From positions 8,346,883 to 8,410,882 of the forward strand of contig JAQMRL010000008.1 in assembly GCA_035578175.1 (NCBI GenBank): DNA of 64,000 nucleotides, in the 5' to 3' direction. The position numbers and the translations under genes are program-made. How positions within the stretch are numbered: the first letter of the stretch is position 1; every line of letters begins with the position of its first letter. Below, piece after piece: positions 5,437-62,052 of this stretch. Origin of the DNA: Catonia carolina (lineage: Eukaryota; Arthropoda; Insecta; Hemiptera; Achilidae). Below the pieces are notes generated by a model. That model searched no databases. It was not told the origin of the DNA and was given only the letters and a program-made list of their open reading frames with translations.

Positions 5437-5666
5437 AGGCCTAATCTTTATATTCCTAACGTAACACGAACCCGACGTGTATTTTATCGAAACTAGTCTT
5501 AATTTACAATTACATTATTAGTGGAAATTTTTCTGGAACTTGCTTAAACCCCGTATAAATTGAGGATCAGTTTTTTTAATTCCAAGCTATCATCATAAAA
5601 TGCAATATAAAAATATTGTTAAAAACTCTTTTGTTTATTTTCTTCTTCTTTTTTGTTTTCTTACAG

Positions 5667-6953
5667 ACGTTGAAATATAATTTACAAGGTCCAGACACAA
5701 TCCTGTCCGATATGGACGTCAGTATATTCGAAAGAGATTCGTTATTCGGCGCTTTCGAGGATGGTTCATTACCGTTGTCAGAAGATTTAAACGCCTCATT
5801 CTCAGAAATCCTGTCGAATCAAAAAAATTGTCAAACGCCCAAAAAAAATATCGCTGATAATAATTTCATAAATTCTACCAATAACAATAACAATAAAAAT
5901 ATGTTTAAAAATATCTTATCAAACAATCAAATTGAAATTTTAAATCCTCTAGAAGAACATTCGAAAGATATAACAATACAAAAAAATAATGCGTCTAAAT
6001 ATAGACAGAAATATGATGAATTTTATAAAAAAAATTATCCGTGTAATATTTGTAAAAAAATTTTTTCTAAATTTACTCTTCTATTACATCACGATAAATT
6101 AGAACATTCCGAATTTTTGAACGATATTAATTGTGGTATTTGCGGTATGTTATTTGTGTCGAAATCAAGAGTCGATATCCATATGTTAAAACACTCGGAA
6201 AAACAATTTGAGTGTCCAGAATGTCATCGAAAAATGTTATCGAAAAAATCGTTGGCCGTACATATGAAATTACATAGCAGTAATAATAATTTTATATGTA
6301 AAGTTTGTGGTGCTGCTAAATTATCGAAAAGAATGTTAGACGATCATGTCAGAAGCGTTCATAGTAAAGAAACTCCGTTCCGGTGCGATTTATGCGGTAA
6401 ACAATTTTCAACCGAACAAAATCGCAATTCGCATTACAATCGTCACGTTAATAAAAAATTATTCAAATGTAATATATGCGGTAGTTTATCGCTTAACGCA
6501 AATAGTTATAAATCGCATTTAGATATGCATAAAAATATCAAAGATATCGTCTGCGATACTTGCGGTAAATTATTCAAATCGAATCAATTATTTCATGAAC
6601 ATATGAAAACACATAATTCGGAAAAACCGTTCAAATGTCTTATCTGTTCTTTTAGTTTTTCAAAACGTTATCTATTAGTTCGTCACGAAGCGACTCATTT
6701 AGGTTTACGACCGCATTCTTGTAGTTATTGTAATAAATCATTTAAACGTAAAGATCTATTAACGGCTCATATCAGAATACATACTGGCGAGAGAAAATAT
6801 TCGTGTAACAATTGTTTAAATAAATTTCTTACTTTACGATCGTTAAAAAGACATCAGCGTAAATGTACAATTACGAACAATGTTAGTACTAATAATTTAA
6901 TCATTAAGGATGTTTTAATTGAAAAATCTATTAACACTAATAATAATTGTTAA
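5667..6953 (+). CDS. Terminal exon A: ten-finger C2H2 array of ZAD zinc-finger factor
   Basis: A long open exon begins after a strong acceptor (polypyrimidine tract, TTACAG at 5661-5666), phase 0, and ends at TAA 6951-6953. Residues 1-125 or so form an acidic then Asn-rich linker. Ten C2H2 fingers follow, starting near YPCNICKKIFSKF and ending with a C2HC finger (CNNCLNKF...HQRKC). Linkers between fingers 7-8 and 9-10 approach TGEKP (HNSEKPF, HTGERKY), typical of sequence-specific DNA binding. The array is collinear with exon B at 17604, for example finger 3 LSKKSLAVHMKLH against LSKASLRCHMKKH. Spliced to the ZAD exon, the product would be a nuclear transcription regulator. The C-terminal tail (IIKDVLIEKSINTNNNC) abuts a transposon that overlaps the stop codon. 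I cannot assign a named orthologue. Confidence 0.9.
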   Translation, partial: TLKYNLQGPDTILSDMDVSIFERDSLFGAFEDGSLPLSEDLNASFSEILSNQKNCQTPKKNIADNNFINSTNNNNNKNMFKNILSNNQIEILNPLEEHSKDITIQKNNASKYRQKYDEFYKKNYPCNICKKIFSKFTLLLHHDKLEHSEFLNDINCGICGMLFVSKSRVDIHMLKHSEKQFECPECHRKMLSKKSLAVHMKLHSSNNNFICKVCGAAKLSKRMLDDHVRSVHSKETPFRCDLCGKQFSTEQNRNSHYNRHVNKKLFKCNICGSLSLNANSYKSHLDMHKNIKDIVCDTCGKLFKSNQLFHEHMKTHNSEKPFKCLICSFSFSKRYLLVRHEATHLGLRPHSCSYCNKSFKRKDLLTAHIRIHTGERKYSCNNCLNKFLTLRSLKRHQRKCTITNNVSTNNLIIKDVLIEKSINTNNNC

Positions 6954-14311: not shown

Positions 14312-14398
14312 ATCTTTTTTATTTCTATTTCATATAATGAATTAATATAATAATTTCACTAACCTTCTTTTTAAACTGTGTCACCTTTATTTTAATTC

Positions 14399-14440
14399 CT
14401 ACTTACACGTGTTTCAGTGGATCCACCATCATCAGAGTAA
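14399..14440 (-). ncRNA. Candidate hammerhead ribozyme motif, left arm
   Basis: Read on the minus strand: stem I strand TTACT, core CTGATGA, one extra T, helix II GGTGG...CCACT (closing pair G-T), then GAAA, stem III ACAC/GTGT, A at the predicted cleavage site, stem I partner AGTA. All conserved core residues are present. Stem III has no loop, as in minimal hammerheads that work as dimers. Confidence 0.55.
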
Positions 14441-14569
14441 ATGAAAAATTGAAACTAAAAAATGAGAAAAAATGAGATGAGATGAGAAAAAATGAAATTT
14501 ACAGAAGATGATACATCTTCTGTAAATTTTAAATAAATGAGAAAAAATTTTTTAGTTTCAATTTTTCAT

Positions 14570-14611
14570 TTACTCTGATGATGGAGGATCCACCGAAACA
14601 CGTGTAAGTAG
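14570..14611 (+). ncRNA. Candidate hammerhead ribozyme motif, right arm
   Basis: Core CTGATGA at 14575-14581, an extra T, helix II GGAGG/CCACC with one A-A mismatch, GAAA at 14595-14598, stem III ACAC/GTGT (14598-14605), predicted cleavage after A14606, and stem I TTACT paired with AGTAG. The unpaired T between core and helix II is shared by all copies and departs from the consensus hammerhead. Confidence 0.55.
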
Positions 14612-14739
14612 GAATTAAAATAAAGGTGACGCAATTTAAAAAGAAGGTTAGTGAAATTATTATATTAATTCATTATATGAAATAGAAATAATTTCAAACT
14701 GCAGGATGCATTATAAAGATTTATCTTTTTTATTTGTTG

Positions 14740-16458: not shown

Positions 16459-17403
16459 ACGGGTGATTCAAAAAGAGCGCCGGTTTTTAAACGGCTGGTA
16501 AATTTTTGTTTATCGGTTGGCAACATTGTTAGACCTCATTTCTATTTCGGAGAACATTCCGATTGACCATTCAGTTGTAGTTTCTCTTGTTCGCAGTGTA
16601 GTACTCTCGCAGTCTGTGTCTAACCATGGAGAAGTTTACTATTGCACAACGAGTGTTAATCGTCAAAACATTTTACCAGAGTGGAGAGAGTTATGCGGCT
16701 ACTGTCAGACGACTTCGCGGTACTCTAGGACGTATTGAAGCACCGAATGAATCAACAGTTCGCAGGCTCATGAAAAAGTTTTTTGAGACGGGTTCAACAG
16801 TCGACCTTAAAAGTTCTGGACGTCGTCGTTCTGGCCGAACTGAGCAGAACGTTGCGTTGGTTCGTGACAGTGTGGCTGTTAGCCCAGCAAAATCAATACG
16901 TCGCCGTTCTCAACAATTGGGTTTACGATGTTCTTCTGTACGGAGAATTCTTCGGTACGATCTCCAATATCACCCGTATAAAATTCAGTTGCTGCACGAG
17001 AAACAATGTTGTTGCTCCGTGAACGGTTCCAGGATCTCGTAATTCCGACCATCAATGGCCACCAAGGTCGTGTGACTTGACGCCTTGTGACTTTCATCTT
17101 TGGGGTCATCTGAAGTCATTGGTGTATGCCAATAAACCCCCGAAACATCAATGACTTGAAGGAGGAAATTCGATGGGTTATCGGGCAAATGGAAGTCGAA
17201 ACTGGTCGTGCAGTAATATCCAATTTCATGGACAGAGTTGATGCGTGCCAGCGCAGTAGAGGAGGACACATGCATGACATCATTTTTCATACATGAAATC
17301 GGAAGGTAAGACGAACTTGTTGATGTATTTATTTTCAGTTTTTCAATCAAATAAATCTCTTAATTTGATATATCAAAACCGGCGCTCTTTTTGAATCACC
17401 CTA
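16459..17403 (+). mobile_element. mariner-like element, internally deleted copy
   Basis: The TA-flanked element has ends ACGGGTGATTCAAAAAGAGC and GCTCTTTTTGAATCACCC. The frame from 16626 is nearly identical to residues 1-122 of the intact transposase at 60800-61885. It then jumps near KIQL to the sequence around residue 258, an internal deletion of about 415 bp that removes the first two catalytic aspartates. Both terminal repeats are complete, so it could be moved in trans by the full-length copy. It sits in the intron before zinc-finger exon B. Confidence 0.9.
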
Positions 17404-17603
17404 TAGTAGCACTTCCAACCCCCGCATAATCCAGTCTTACTCTCGATGACGATCGTCAACTTATATCGCGTTACCAGTGCAGACTCACGGGTTTTATCAC
17501 AGTATTATGTCTTTGTAATTGTATTATTGTTTTAATTAAAATAATAAAACATTTAAAATTTGTTAGTTTGTATTTTAATTAGAATTATTATTTATATTTG
17601 CAG

Positions 17604-19021
17604 AAACCATCTGATGAATTTACTCAAAGTTTTGGTGAAGATGTATCTTCAACAATGAATACTCAAATTTTAAACGACGATGTATCTTCAAGTTTAAACA
17701 CTCAAATTTTAACAGAAGATGTACCTTCAACAATAAATACTCAAATGTTAAATGAAGATTTATCAACAGCTGCGATAAATTCTAATAATACAAAACAAAG
17801 CGATAGTACTAGTGGAAATCAAAAATCTTATTTTTTAATTGTGAAAGACGAAACAGATGACGATAATGCGATAAGTACTGATAATATTTTACGTAAAGAT
17901 AAAGATTGTAATTTACAAGAAAAAATCGAGAGTAAAACTTTTCGTAAAATAGATGATAATGAAAATATAAAAAATAATAATAATAAATATCGTAAAAAAG
18001 ATAATAAAAATATTAAAAATGAAAACGAAGAAAACGTATCGAAATGGAAATTAAAATATGAACGTTACCAGAAAAAAGAATACGTATGCGGTTTAAAATC
18101 ATGCGATAAAATTTTCAGTCGTTTTTGTGATCTGATTCAACATGATCGTTTGGATCACGAGAATATACCGATGGAAAAAACATGTAATATCTGTAGCAAA
18201 ATGTTTATAAATCAAAATCGAATTAAAATACATATGTCAACATATCATAGCGAGAAAAAATTTACATGCGATATCTGTGACGGTAAATTTTTATCGAAAG
18301 CTTCATTGAGATGTCATATGAAAAAACATAGTGGACTGTTTATTTGTAAAATTTGCGGTTTAAGTACAAGTTCAAATATGGCGTTAATTGAACATAGTAG
18401 AAAACATAGCGGAGAAAAACCGTTCATTTGCGATACATGTGGACGATCTTATGTTACCAAAACTAGTTTAACTTCACATAAACAATGTCATACCAAAGAA
18501 TTATTATTTAAATGCGATTTATGCGGTTATACTGCACATAATCATAGTTCAATGCATATGCATAAAGTTACGCATGGTATTAAAAATGCCGATTGTATTT
18601 GTGAAGTCTGTGGTAAAATGTTTAAATTTCCATCTAGGTTATATGAACATCGTAAGGTACATAATCCTAATAAAAAATTTATTTGCGATATTTGTAAATC
18701 ACCGTTTGCCAATAAATATCGTTTAACGATACATTCCAGAATACATTCAGGTGAACGTCCTTATACTTGCGATATTTGTAATAAATCGTTCGCGAGGCGC
18801 GATTCACTTAATGAACATATTCGTATACACACCGGTGAGAAAAAATATACATGTGCTCAATGTAATACTTCATTTTCGTTTCTGAAACCTTATAAATTTC
18901 ATAAATGCCCTCCTGAAGAACGTAAACCTAATAATGACGTAGTTACCCAAAAAAATACCGTTTCTAGTATTGATCCAGCAATTTTAAATCAAGAAGATGC
19001 AACACAGGGTATATTTAATTA
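17604..19021 (+). CDS. Terminal exon B: ten-finger C2H2 array of ZAD zinc-finger factor
   Basis: The exon starts after acceptor TTTGCAG (17597-17603) in phase 0 and ends at TAA 19019-19021. It begins with three tandem 13-residue repeats of the type EDVSSTMNTQILN, then an Asn/Lys-rich linker. Ten C2H2 fingers follow, from YVCGLKSCDKIFSRF (C-x4-C spacing in finger 1) to CAQCNTSFSFLKPYKFHKC. TGEKP-like linkers occur (HSGEKPF, HSGERPY, HTGEKKY). Finger order and spacing match exon A, pointing to exon duplication. Predicted DNA-contact residues differ between arrays, so the two would recognise different sites. Spliced to the ZAD exon at 2767-2925 it would form a second isoform. A separate gene using an unseen ZAD exon is less likely, since none was found between 6953 and 17603. 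Confidence 0.9.
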
Positions 19022-19085
19022 AAATTTTATTACTGCATGAATCTAAGCTTTGTGCAGCTGCGGGATGAAGGGGACAGACGAAGTA

Positions 19086-24354: not shown

Positions 24355-24510
24355 CGGCCCGTTGGCATAATGGTTAGCGCAACTGGCTTCTACGCCGGGG
24401 TCCCGGGTTCGATTCCCGGTCAGGTCTGGCATTTTTTCATCACTCATTTTCATTATCATCATTATCCACCATCTGCATTAGCAGATATTGCAAAACAGTC
24501 GGCGTAAAAA
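24355..24510 (+). mobile_element. SINE-2 variant with well-preserved tRNA-like head
   Basis: The head reads GTTGGCATAATGGTTAGCGC (A box/D arm), an anticodon-like arm, and CCGGGTTCGATTCCCGG, which is a perfect 5-bp T arm. The acceptor stem has mismatches, and a SINE body (CATCTGCATTAGCAG, ACAGTCGGCGT) follows directly. It is therefore a SINE and not a tRNA gene, though the head could still recruit RNA polymerase III. Confidence 0.75.
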
Positions 24511-33420: not shown

Positions 33421-33483
33421 CGAGGGTTTTTTTTCAACCTCCAATAGGCGAATAAGTAAAAGATAAGTGAATATACAAAAAAT

Positions 33484-33646
33484 TTTAAATTTTAAATAAA
33501 TGAAAATAATTTTTAGTTTCAATTTTTCATTTACTCTGATGATGGTGGATCCACCGAAACACGTGTAAGTAGAAATTACAATAAAGGTGACGCAGTTTAA
33601 AAAGAAGGTTAGTGAAATTATTATATTAATTCATTATATGAAATAG
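33484..33646 (+). mobile_element. Single 163-bp retrozyme-like unit
   Basis: It is flanked by a perfect 13-bp duplication ATATACAAAAAAT (33471-33483 and 33647-33659). It is the same sequence as one arm of the palindrome at 14325-14722 and carries a hammerhead-like motif. No open frame. Size and structure fit known non-autonomous hammerhead retroelements ('retrozymes') and the terminal units of Penelope-like elements. That link is inference from the motif. Confidence 0.75.
33530..33573 (+). ncRNA. Candidate hammerhead ribozyme, best-preserved copy
   Basis: Stem I 5' strand TTTACT (33530-33535) pairs with AGTAGA (33568-33573), with one G-U pair. Core CTGATGA is 33536-33542. One extra T follows, then helix II GGTGG/CCACC (33544-33548, 33551-33555). 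GAAA is 33556-33559. Stem III ACAC/GTGT spans 33559-33566, with predicted cleavage after A33567. Every conserved core base of the hammerhead fold is present. Unusual points are the unpaired T before helix II and a loopless 4-bp stem III, which would favour action as a dimer or in tandem transcripts. Confidence 0.6.
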
Positions 33647-34049
33647 ATATACAAAAAATGTTTTATTTCTAAAAGTTACATATACTTTGGCTACTTTCCC
33701 ATATAATCATATAAGCATTTGTCGTATCTGTGAATGAGCTTTCCAATACTTTTCATAAAATGCTGCTGTCAATGAATTTAAATGACTCTTTAAGGTTTTT
33801 ATAGTCTAGTTGTCCTCCTAGCCACTTCTTCAGTGTAGGGAAAAGACGGATGTCATTTGGTGCTAGGTTCAGTCAGTATAGTGGGTGATCAAAATGTCCC
33901 ATTGAAATCGTTCAAGTTGGGTAGCACGAGCACTGTGAGGATGGGCGTTTTCATGGATCAGAACAACTCCAGAAGTCAGCGCACCTCTTCTTTTGTTACA
34001 AATGACTCTTCGCAAACTTTGTAAAGTTTTACAATAAACAACTGCATTA

Positions 34050-54420: not shown

Positions 54421-54545
54421 CTGTTTTTGTTTTTTTAATCCTTAATGGTGTACGTAGCAATCTGTTCAATTCAGAACAATAAGCAACCCCATGACCCAAT
54501 GAGATGAGAACGATATGTATGACGTGTAAATGAAGTAGTGAAAAG
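54421..54545 (-). mobile_element. SINE-3, 3' part, with long target duplication
   Basis: Contains CAATAAGCAACCCCATGACC. The flanks TTGCAATGACTTCTGTTT occur at both ends (about 54408 and 54549), a duplication of roughly 17-18 bp. The right copy is the first unit of the minisatellite that follows. Confidence 0.75.
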
Positions 54546-54680
54546 TAGTTGCAATGACTTCTGTTTGTGTAAATAAAGTGTAGTTGCAATGACTTCTGTT
54601 TGTGTAAATAAAGTGTAGTTGCAATGACTTCTGTTTATGTAAATAAAGTGTAGTTGCAATGACTTCTGTTTGTTCAAACT
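54545..54680. repeat. 35-bp minisatellite, about four units
   Basis: Unit GTAGTTGCAATGACTTCTGT TTGTGTAAATAAAGT recurs four times with one or two changes. The unit starts from the SINE target duplication. A frame across it gives repeated QLHFI, not a protein. Not a CRISPR: there are no variable spacers. Confidence 0.85.
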
Positions 54681-55797: not shown

Positions 55798-57837
55798 TAC
55801 ATTAAAATTTATTTTTATACAAATGACTGAATATACATATAATCTAGAAATTTTAACAAATTTAATTTCAATTTTTTTTAATTTATGTACTATGATGATA
55901 GTAGATCCACTGAAATAAGTTAAAAAATAAAAATATCAGGAAAAAATAATTAATACATCACTTTTAAAACGTTAACAAAAATTACAATTGGAGAATTTTA
56001 AACAATACTACTTCTATCATAAAAACAAAACTATATATTCAATAAAACTCGCTTACAGCAAAGATATAACGAATAAAATTCACTGGAAATATAAAAATTA
56101 CAATAATAAAAAACAAACAAAAGTTTATCCTGTTGAACATATAATATATTCCGATATGTCATACATCCTTTTACAAAAAAAAAATTAACTCAACAAATAA
56201 TAAAAACATACTACAAAATAATAAATTTAATAACAATAATTATTTTATTAACTATTTAATACATAACAACATTATAAAAATAATAGTATTAATTTTTATG
56301 AGTATATAAATATTTACAATGTATTCAAATTTATTAAGTACATTATTCATACTACCGGTATTTTTTTTACGATTACTCTCTCTTATTTTGTTGCTCAATA
56401 TATATTGTGTTGCACATGTTCCAAAAAAAAAAAAAAAAAGAATTAAAATAAAAGTATTTCCCAGAATTTTCTTAATAGATATAAACCATTTAAAAATAAA
56501 TTTTTGAAATTTACATTTGAACATTTGATCCTCTTACAGAAGAAGGACAAACCAGAAATCTCGCAATTACAATTTTATAAATTTCGGTCTACTCTATTCA
56601 AAATTTATAAAACCAGATTAATAAGACATAAAAAACTAAACCAGAATTTAATTACAAATGATGGTACAATCACTATCAAAGAAAATTATGTAAATACCAA
56701 ATTACCAATCACTATCAAAGAAAATTATGTAAATACCAAATTACAAAAAAAAAAAACAATTATCAACATTATAGAGACTGGCCACTGGCTTGTGGCACCT
56801 ACAAAAAAAACAGCTGACATCCTCCGTTCCCCATCCCTCACCCATTACGTATAGTCACTTCACTTCACATACGCACATACTCTACTTATGTAATTTATGT
56901 CATACTAACAATACATTAGAACAATTGTTCTATAGTAATGTTATGCTCGGATTTTATACACAATTCATTTACTTAACATTAACCCTTACTAACCGGGAGG
57001 CCCAATATCACTCATTCGTCATCATCTTTCTTTAAACTCAATTATCTCCATAACTATTCATTATTTTCTAACGGGTTTAGTTTTATTAGATAGAGACGTT
57101 TTTCTTCTTTCATTTGATGTATTTTGCATATTTATACGATGAAAATTGACGACGTGGTGTTACGCGAAAAAAAGCTTTTTTTCTTTTTTTTGAACAGCCA
57201 GTACTAAAATTTGATCGTTTTCATCCATAACTTTTCAACAAAAAACCGTATTTGTTTGGGAATGATTTTGTTTCAAAATCAATAAATTATAAGTGCCGGC
57301 GACAAATTTTATGACCCTAAAATCGAGCAAAGAAGGTTAACACTACCTGTCTCGTCTATCCCTCGGTTAAACCTTACAATTAGCGTCAAAATAAACATTA
57401 ACATATTTTGATTTATGCTATCCTGTTTAGAAAAGGATAATACATATACACATATAAAGGACAAACAAAATTCACAAAAGAGATAAAACTTTCATAGAAG
57501 AGGAGTAAATAAAAATTGAAAAGATGCCACATTATTTTGAGGCAATTTTTACCTAATTTTTTTCATCCAGCACATTACTTTGTTGAACAAAAAGTGTGAT
57601 ATCTTTTGAATGCGTCTATCAATTTGCAATATCTAAACGTTGTTACTTTTGCAATAAATTGCTTTATTTATGTATGTATAGCTAAACATATGTTTTTGTA
57701 TTTTTTACTGATTTAGTGACACTTTTTGTACGTAAATTGATATTACAAAAAGAAAATATTTTTTCATAATATTCATTTTTTATTCAGGTGGAAATGAAAA
57801 CGGAAAAATTTGGTTTAAACATTGTTCTAATAACAAA
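55798..57837. other. AT-rich spacer; possible weak TTAA element
   Basis: At 55890-55930 a degraded relative of the 163-bp unit (GATGATAGTAGATCCACTGA) is visible. A 39-bp stretch (ATCACTATCAAAGAAAATTA..) is tandemly doubled at 56660-56740. TTAA-flanked 56982-57336 begins CCCTTACTAACC and ends AAAGAAGG, a poor match for inverted ends. No convincing gene. Confidence 0.35.
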
Positions 57838-60692: not shown

Positions 60693-62052
60693 TAGGGTGA
60701 TTCAAAAAGAGCGCCGGTTTTGATATATCAAATTAAGAGATTTATTTTATTGAAAAACTGAAAATAAATACATCAACAAGTTCATCTTACCTTCCGATTT
60801 CATGTATGAAAAATGATGTCATGCATGTGTCCTCCTCTACTGCGCTGGCACGCATCAACTCTGTCCATGAAATTGGATATTACTGCACGACAAGTTTCGA
60901 CTTCCATTTGCCCGATAACCCGTCGAATTTCCTCCTTCAAGTCATTGATGTTTCGGGGTTTATTGGCATACACCAATGGCTTCAGATGACCCCAAAGATG
61001 AAAGTCACAAGGCGTAAAGTCACACGACCTTGGTGGCCATTGATGGTCGGAATTACGAGAAATGATGCGATCCTGGAAACGTTCACGGAGCAACAACATT
61101 GTTTCTCGTGCAGCGTGACAGGTGGCACCATCCTGCTGAAACCACAACTCGTCAATGTCCATTCCATTCAAATGACGCCACAAAAACTCCCTAATCATCG
61201 TACGGTATCGGTCTCCATTTACTGTCACGGCTTGTCCTTCTTGATTTTCAAAAAAGTAAGGGCCGATGACACCGCCCGACCAAAAGCCGCACCAAACTGT
61301 CACTCGCTGTGCATACATTTCCCTTTCATTAACCACGCGAGGGTTTTCTAAACCCCACATACGGCAGTTTTGTTTATTCACAAAACCGTTTAAGTGGAAG
61401 TGCGCCTCATCACTGAAAATGATTTTGTTTGCGAAGGTGTCATCATCCTGCCGTTTTCTCAATACCCAGTCAACAAACTGTCGTCTCTTCTGGTGGTCTG
61501 CCACTTTCAAATGTTGCGTCAACTGAATTTTATACGGGTGATATTGGAGATCGTACCGAAGAATTCTCCGTACAGAAGAACATCGTAAACCCAATTGTTG
61601 AGAACGGCGACGTATTGATTTTGCTGGGCTAACAGCCACACTGTCACGAACCAACGCAACGTTCTGCTCAGTTCGGCCAGAACGACGACGTCCAGAACTT
61701 TTAAGGTCGACTGTTGAACCCGTATCAAAAAACTTTTTCATGATCCTGCGAACTGTTGATTCATTCGGTGCTTCATTACGTCCTAGAGTACCGCAAAGTC
61801 GCCTGACAGTAGCCGCATAACTCTCTCCACTCTGGTAAAATGTTTTGACGATTAACCCTCGTTGTGCAATAGTAAACTTCTCCATGGTTAGACACAGACT
61901 GCGAGAGTACTACACTGCGAACAAGGGAAACTACAACTGAATCGTCAATCGGAATGTTCTCCGAAATAGAAATGAGGTCTAACAATGTTGCCAACCGATA
62001 AACAAAAATTTACCAGCCGTTTAAAAACCGGCGCTCTTTTTGAATCACCCGT
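60693..62052 (-). mobile_element. Complete mariner-like element, 1360 bp
   Basis: TA lies on both sides (60691, 62053). Inverted ends GGGTGATTCAAAAAGAGCGC CGGTTTT at both termini. It encodes one uninterrupted transposase. The deleted copy at 16459-17403 has the same ends. Completeness of ends and gene suggests recent or current mobility. Confidence 0.9.
60800..61885 (-). CDS. Tc1/mariner-superfamily transposase, intact
   Basis: A single open frame of 361 codons, start MEKFTIAQRGLIVKTFYQSG, stop at 60800-60802. Residues 1-115 hold two helix-turn-helix units (..NESTVRRIMKKF.., ..RSQQLGLRCSSVRRILR) around a GRRRSGRT basic hook like the GRPR motif. The catalytic triad is Asp159 (IIFSDEAHFHLNG), Asp252 (WFQQDGATCHAA) and Asp289 (WPPRSCDFTPCDFHLWG). 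The last two are 37 positions apart, so this is a DDD enzyme with longer spacing than the DD34D of classic mariners. The N-terminal Met lies 5' of all conserved motifs. The enzyme would cut and paste its own ends at TA sites. No damaging change is visible, but activity is unproven. Confidence 0.92.
   Translation of the reverse strand: MEKFTIAQRGLIVKTFYQSGESYAATVRRLCGTLGRNEAPNESTVRRIMKKFFDTGSTVDLKSSGRRRSGRTEQNVALVRDSVAVSPAKSIRRRSQQLGLRCSSVRRILRYDLQYHPYKIQLTQHLKVADHQKRRQFVDWVLRKRQDDDTFANKIIFSDEAHFHLNGFVNKQNCRMWGLENPRVVNEREMYAQRVTVWCGFWSGGVIGPYFFENQEGQAVTVNGDRYRTMIREFLWRHLNGMDIDELWFQQDGATCHAARETMLLLRERFQDRIISRNSDHQWPPRSCDFTPCDFHLWGHLKPLVYANKPRNINDLKEEIRRVIGQMEVETCRAVISNFMDRVDACQRSRGGHMHDIIFHT

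Follow-up and report, generated by a model that had tools for sequence, protein, structure and literature searches.

Short hammerhead-bearing repeats in a Catonia carolina contig, probably derived from the pseudo-LTR of a Penelope-like element, one pair of them in head-to-head orientation

How does a short repeat with a predicted hammerhead in its interior come to stand alone at one place in a genome and as a head-to-head pair at another, between perfect 13-bp repeats in both cases? We address this question in a stretch of 64,000 nucleotides from Catonia carolina, which was analysed as a whole and which we call the window. Our answer is that the units are probably ORF-less insertions of the pseudo-LTR (pLTR) of a Penelope-like element (PLE). 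The preliminary description of this DNA, made from its letters, had proposed a non-autonomous, ribozyme-bearing retroelement, and had named retrozymes and the ends of PLEs as the two settings in which such hammerheads occur. A retroelement with the motif and with target duplications is well supported by what follows; as to its home, the retrozyme setting suffers from the lack of a tandem array in the window, and the Penelope-like terminus fits the published anatomy in many points. The features on which the argument depends are listed in Table 1.

Table 1. Positions of the units, their flanking duplications and the parts of the predicted hammerhead, in coordinates of the window
Feature	Position	Strand	Remarks
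Left 13-bp duplication of the pair, ATCTTTTTTATTT	14312-14324	+	Abuts the minus unit
Minus unit of the pair, including palindrome arm	14325-14510	-	186 bp
Junction palindrome	14495-14529		16-nt arms 14495-14510 and 14514-14529 around ATA
Plus unit of the pair	14514-14685	+	172 bp
37-nt extension, on one arm only	14686-14722	+	Read as an optional PLE tail
Right 13-bp duplication of the pair, ATCTTTTTTATTT	14723-14735	+	37 nt past the plus unit
Hammerhead motif, minus unit	14398-14441	-	First helix II pair is G-U
Hammerhead motif, plus unit	14569-14612	+	Third helix II pair is an A.A mismatch
Left 13-bp target-site duplication of the single unit, ATATACAAAAAAT	33471-33483	+	
Single unit	33484-33646	+	163 bp; read as a solo pseudo-LTR; slight 5' truncation relative to the pair
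Type I hammerhead motif, single unit	33530-33573	+	Predicted cut after A33567
Stem I, single unit	33530-33535/33568-33573		TTTACT/AGTAGA, six pairs, one of them G-U
Core CTGATGA, single unit	33536-33542		Extra T at 33543
ATG from A9, extra T and G10.1	33542-33544	+	At the start of helix II
Helix II, single unit	33544-33547/33552-33555		GGTG-GATC-CACC; GAAA at 33556-33559
Palindrome ACACGTGT, single unit	33559-33566		Cut predicted after the A that follows
Right 13-bp target-site duplication of the single unit, same ATATACAAAAAAT	33647-33659	+	
Decayed hammerhead-like relative	55880-55934 (model match), 55848-55915 (BLAST)	+	Missed in the preliminary description

The single unit presents the simplest case. 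The two copies of ATATACAAAAAAT adjoin its ends directly and are identical over all 13 bp, and among the 63300 positions compared at the same spacing this locus is the only one at which an identical 13-mer abuts on both sides; the placement of the unit between perfect 13-bp repeats, as first described, is thereby confirmed. For other word lengths the same test returned from 1 to 10 positions (10 for 12-mers), and a control with looser criteria found some word of at least 13 shared within the 60-bp flanks of 9 among 2000 random loci. By eye, the single unit has no visible terminal inverted repeats, and we reject a MITE reading for that reason. The units contain 24% G+C and measure 163 and 172 bp (single and plus unit), or up to 186 bp when the palindrome arm of the minus unit is counted.

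The second occurrence consists of two such units in opposite orientation. The minus unit is 97% identical to the single unit over 137 bases, and the plus unit is 95% identical to it over 163 aligned columns. According to a count made by eye on the alignments, any two of the three units differ by four substitutions across the 137 bases that they share, and this equality of the arm-to-arm and arm-to-single distances fits either similar ages or separate templates. The pair had been described as occupying 14325-14722 inside a different 13-bp repeat, and this stands, with the units reaching to 14685 and the extension making up the remainder. Of 63300 positions, 2 show a left-abutting 13-mer that recurs within the pair's range. 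Neither arm alone is flanked by a repeat of at least 7 bp in the short stretches that were compared; we therefore reject two independent insertions and conclude that the pair most likely entered as one. Both insertions carry a 13-bp target-site duplication in A+T-rich DNA. The extension itself has no second copy in the window by a 12-mer recurrence check, and the fold of its region is unremarkable when compared with shuffles (z = -0.01). Within the minus unit, at 14457-14495, a AAAAAATGAG-type repeat takes the place of part of the normal 5' region, an arrangement that looks like a piece flipped and duplicated.

All three units have the strand order of a type I hammerhead, as the preliminary description had read them, and the core is identical in all three. 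Our strict descriptor is passed by two of the three, the plus unit failing because of the one A.A mismatch in its helix II. The part of the earlier reading that we cannot retain is the ACAC/GTGT pairing of helix III, which is impossible in a monomer because no loop separates the two strands. Helix III is a zero-loop palindrome that offers 2 bp and an ACGU loop in a monomer, and 8 bp between two molecules. In the single unit GGTGGATCCACC and ACACGTGT are both perfect palindromes. Weak or palindromic helices III that work, or are proposed to work, as dimers are described for hammerheads of newt, axolotl and Aedes. The palindromic-stem-III hammerhead of Aedes aegypti (PMC3088659) resembles the present motif in having a helix III that is weak in the monomer and fully paired in the dimer; hammerheads of that type differ in that ACACGTGT here has no loop whatever and in that helix II of the single unit is also a perfect palindrome.

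How much weight can such a motif bear? The strict descriptor found no match in 30000 unit shuffles; in window shuffles it found 1 match in 60 and, separately, 2 matches in 400 searched on both strands. Given no match in the unit shuffles and two in the 400 window shuffles, it is unlikely that the type I order arose by chance. Other lines of evidence are less favourable. The preliminary description had proposed a check with hammerhead covariance models, and this check, run within the window via Rfam, gave no hammerhead match, whether at the gathering score over the whole window or at E<=10 over both loci. Rfam matches to MIR7533 and MIR6027 lie over the pair, both under the gathering score; we attribute them to the long inverted repeat of the pair. 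The hammerhead is not the structure obtained by minimum-energy folding in any of the three units, whose hammerhead folds have energies of -5.0, +0.9 and -1.3 kcal/mol against minima of -11.2, -8.3 and -7.6 kcal/mol; similarly, a double hammerhead of the single unit has -25.1 kcal/mol against -39.0 kcal/mol for the best dimer, and in none of the six pairings tried is a double hammerhead the best dimer. Neither tertiary contacts nor the non-canonical pairs of the core enter into these energies. Compensatory changes, also suggested then as a test, are represented by a single pair changed on both sides, the first pair of helix II, which is G-C, G-U or A-U in an alignment of four rows in which 91.5% of the cells pair; 248 of 500 shuffles reach the same, and such changes are too few to decide the matter. 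The predicted motif thus rests on its exact core and on the order of its parts, and not on covariation or energy.

A fourth, decayed relative lies near 55 kb. A model derived from the three good units finds it with 29.1 bits and an E-value of 0.0012, where all other matches outside the units have E-values of 0.75 or worse, and BLAST aligns it at 74% identity over 73 columns. It keeps the GATC loop, has A in place of C3 and is without helix III, as PLE hammerheads often are in published accounts. No Penelope ORF was found around it. Exact-pattern scans for further relatives returned 0 loci in collections of viral contigs and prokaryote genomes.

The core contains one nucleotide more than expected. 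An extra T beside helix II in all copies had been remarked upon as odd, and we find it in every unit and in the decayed relative as well. The natural hammerhead of CChMVd reportedly also contains a single additional nucleotide close to A9 (De la Pena and Flores 2001); there it is said to be an A, whereas here it is a T that completes an ATG. Under the PLE reading, the extra T may be the T of a start codon that overlaps the hammerhead core, which would explain the odd nucleotide, since the ATG that it completes stands at the start of helix II, where a characterised Penelope ORF begins. Counted from this ATG, all three units have the predicted cut at +26 and their end at +105, although the distance of +26 is partly fixed by the geometry of the hammerhead, and the counting in the paper on PAc, the Poseidon element of Anolis carolinensis, may differ from ours by one base. 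In each unit the frame opened by the ATG runs for eight codons and is then closed by a TAA.

The predicted cut site lies inside a GTAAGT (33564-33569, and the matching place in both units of the pair), which we take to be a perfect 5' splice-site hexamer. For the plus arm seven AG acceptors can be listed. One of them, in a CTGCAG within the 37-nt extension, leaves 15 residues of open frame beyond the junction, with about five codons inside the extension and the rest in flanking DNA. This acceptor was picked after the fact among the seven, and its behaviour may be due to chance.

The likeness to PAc extends over several features. In PAc (PMC11167929), the ORF starts at stem II, the cut is at +26, reverse transcription starts at +111-118 and the tail has 30-40 bp; the units likewise have a hammerhead that may overlap an ORF start, a cut predicted 26 nt on, an end that suggests priming some 105-118 nt into the ORF, and, on one arm, an extension of comparable length that may be such a tail. 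In addition, both target strands are cut and extended by PAc, its targets are AT-rich, unprocessed RNA is its template, and in the absence of the PLE protein no cleavage of its hammerhead was seen in vitro (PMC11167929). The comparison is one of anatomy. PAc has an open ORF (PMC11167929), while here the frame stops after eight codons.

Further support for the PLE reading comes from the Penelope inserts reported for Adineta vaga. In the examples given there (PMC3846280) the pLTRs measure 181-218 bp, an inverted pLTR, most often head to head, completes the insert, palindromes of 18 and 38 bp occupy the 5' ends of pLTRs, and a 31-bp tail is optional on one inverted pLTR; duplications, where present, have 8-10 bp, and several inverted or solo pLTRs are without any. 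Our loci share with these examples the approximate pLTR length, the head-to-head arrangement of pLTRs, the junction palindrome, the presence of duplications and, if the extension is element sequence, the tail on one arm. They differ in that most of these A. vaga examples include an ORF and have duplications of 8-10 bp or none (PMC3846280), whereas we see no ORF and 13 bp. Hammerheads go unmentioned in the part of that paper on which we rely (PMC3846280).

A repeat of about 180-220 bp bounding an ORF for a reverse transcriptase (RT) and GIY-YIG nuclease is not what we find: the units measure 163-186 bp, and no RT or GIY-YIG domain was detected in the window's 101 ORFs of at least 75 aa (scanned as a set of 10, one of which was taken from its first start codon and not from stop to stop, and a set of 91). 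The claim is that the units are pLTR-derived, rather than a complete Penelope element. We restrict it in this way because of the eight-codon frame, the lack of a PLE domain in these ORFs, the requirement that a PAc template include 172 nt of ORF (PMC11167929), and an extension that is single-copy and unremarkable. That requirement exceeds what a unit holds, and a longer transcript must therefore be assumed.

With this restriction, the three units, which have a fixed 3' end, a variable 5' end and an unbroken course across the predicted cut site, suggest the following mechanism. A PLE transcript would carry a pLTR, and in the 3' part of that pLTR a minimal type I hammerhead, prone to dimerise, would overlap the ATG. 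After cutting AT-rich DNA, the PLE protein would begin reverse transcription at an internal site of the RNA, about 105 nt beyond the ATG, or alternatively about 142 nt beyond it, in which case a tail would be left. Copying back to the 5' end of the RNA, which may lie near CATCTTCTG, would then produce an insertion of the pLTR alone, fixed at its 3' end and variable at its 5' end. If only one cut strand were extended, the result would be a single unit such as that at 33484-33646; if both were, two cDNAs would come together in head-to-head orientation through their palindromic 5' ends, as at 14325-14722, and the tail on one arm only would follow if these cDNAs had started one from each of the two sites. 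Since no unit is interrupted at the predicted cut site, linear monomers released by cleavage are unlikely to have served as the direct template.

One may carry this a step further, and we do so tentatively, with the odds in our judgement against the full statement. The pair could preserve a snapshot of Penelope-type integration, in which each cut strand primed cDNA from a different start site and so left the tail on one arm; the overlap of the hammerhead core with the start codon, through the extra U, and the position of the cut site inside GUAAGU could make cutting, splicing and translation of the RNA mutually exclusive; and internal priming could by default yield pLTR-only units as its short product, with no separate family to be postulated. 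The inverted junction, on the other hand, may have been made by a self-primed hairpin that folded back, the explanation favoured for such junctions by the A. vaga authors (PMC3846280), although a single self-primed hairpin is not in itself enough to produce a tail on one side only.

It is important to weigh these PLE readings against a different origin for the units. The animal non-LTR retrozymes are tandem arrays that are transcribed into RNA, cut by their hammerheads into monomers, circularised, and reverse-transcribed as circles by the enzyme of another element. Published metazoan retrozymes are low-G+C repeats of 150-450 bp with duplications longer than 4 bp (15 bp in Nematostella), and retrozyme-like repeats have been reported from insects. 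Our units, at 163-172 bp and with their low G+C content, type I motif, weak helix III and long duplications, would be at home in this group (PMC7229834), and copies that cross the cut site would equally be expected from a circle primed at a constant position. Nevertheless, we regard a retrozyme origin, the main rival of the PLE reading, as unlikely. Within the window, neither BLAST nor a tandem scan found units arranged head to tail, the ends of the units do not coincide with the predicted cut site, and the inverted pair, the junction palindrome and the one-sided extension lie outside the published model as there set out, which produces tandem cDNA copies. The metazoan retrozymes are moreover tandem and have been shown as circular RNA (PMC7229834), whereas the present units are single or inverted. 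The two origins may in the end meet, since it has been proposed that PLEs drive retrozymes.

The A-rich target and 13-bp duplications would also suit the machinery of a LINE, and ORF fragments that are presumably LINE-like (an assignment not based on Pfam) lie nearby. We have therefore to consider a SINE-like short retroposon, moved by a LINE, that happens to carry a hammerhead. We find this improbable: Rfam and ARAGORN gave no tRNA-, 7SL- or 5S-type match in the units, their common 3' end has no poly(A) or simple-repeat tail, and the head-to-head pair would be left unexplained. Least credible of all is a merely fortuitous resemblance to a hammerhead in an ordinary repeat with an RNA that folds into other hairpins, which would sit well with the Rfam result, the lower energies of other folds and the shuffles that match the covariation, and which the shuffle counts of the strict descriptor and the shared core of the three good units speak against.

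The surroundings of the units include other mobile and repetitive DNA. A full-length ORF for a DUF4817/Mos1-HTH transposase occupies 60803-61909 (-), with up to 87% identity to unnamed proteins and with named matches in a spider, a butterfly and Hymenoptera, and a second, shorter copy lies at 16602-17042 (+). Two C2H2 zinc-finger ORFs are found at 5616-6953 (+) and 17598-19022 (+), the latter containing a 39-bp tandem repeat at 17637-17764; among the 7946 candidates scored for a zinc-finger ORF, named Sternorrhyncha matches have 46-52% identity, and the best E-values belong to vertebrate proteins, at lower identity. Taken together, the transposase and zinc-finger matches point to an arthropod genome, and weakly to a sternorrhynchan one. 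A tRNA-like sequence at 24356-24427 (+) has an odd anticodon loop and scores 30.9 in Rfam (cut-off 29), with no assignment by ARAGORN. Finally, a 35-bp tandem repeat of 3.7 copies with 97% matches is located at 54545-54673.

The kind of element to which we would assign the units is already known, and it is their layout that has a bearing on the way in which such elements insert. Among Penelope elements, inverted pLTRs and optional tails are familiar oddities of debated origin. An ORF-less head-to-head pair with intact duplications offers a clean case for this question, and its one-arm tail argues for two separate priming events over one self-primed hairpin. The extra nucleotide of the hammerhead core is, at the same time, offered a reason: it completes what may be a start codon.
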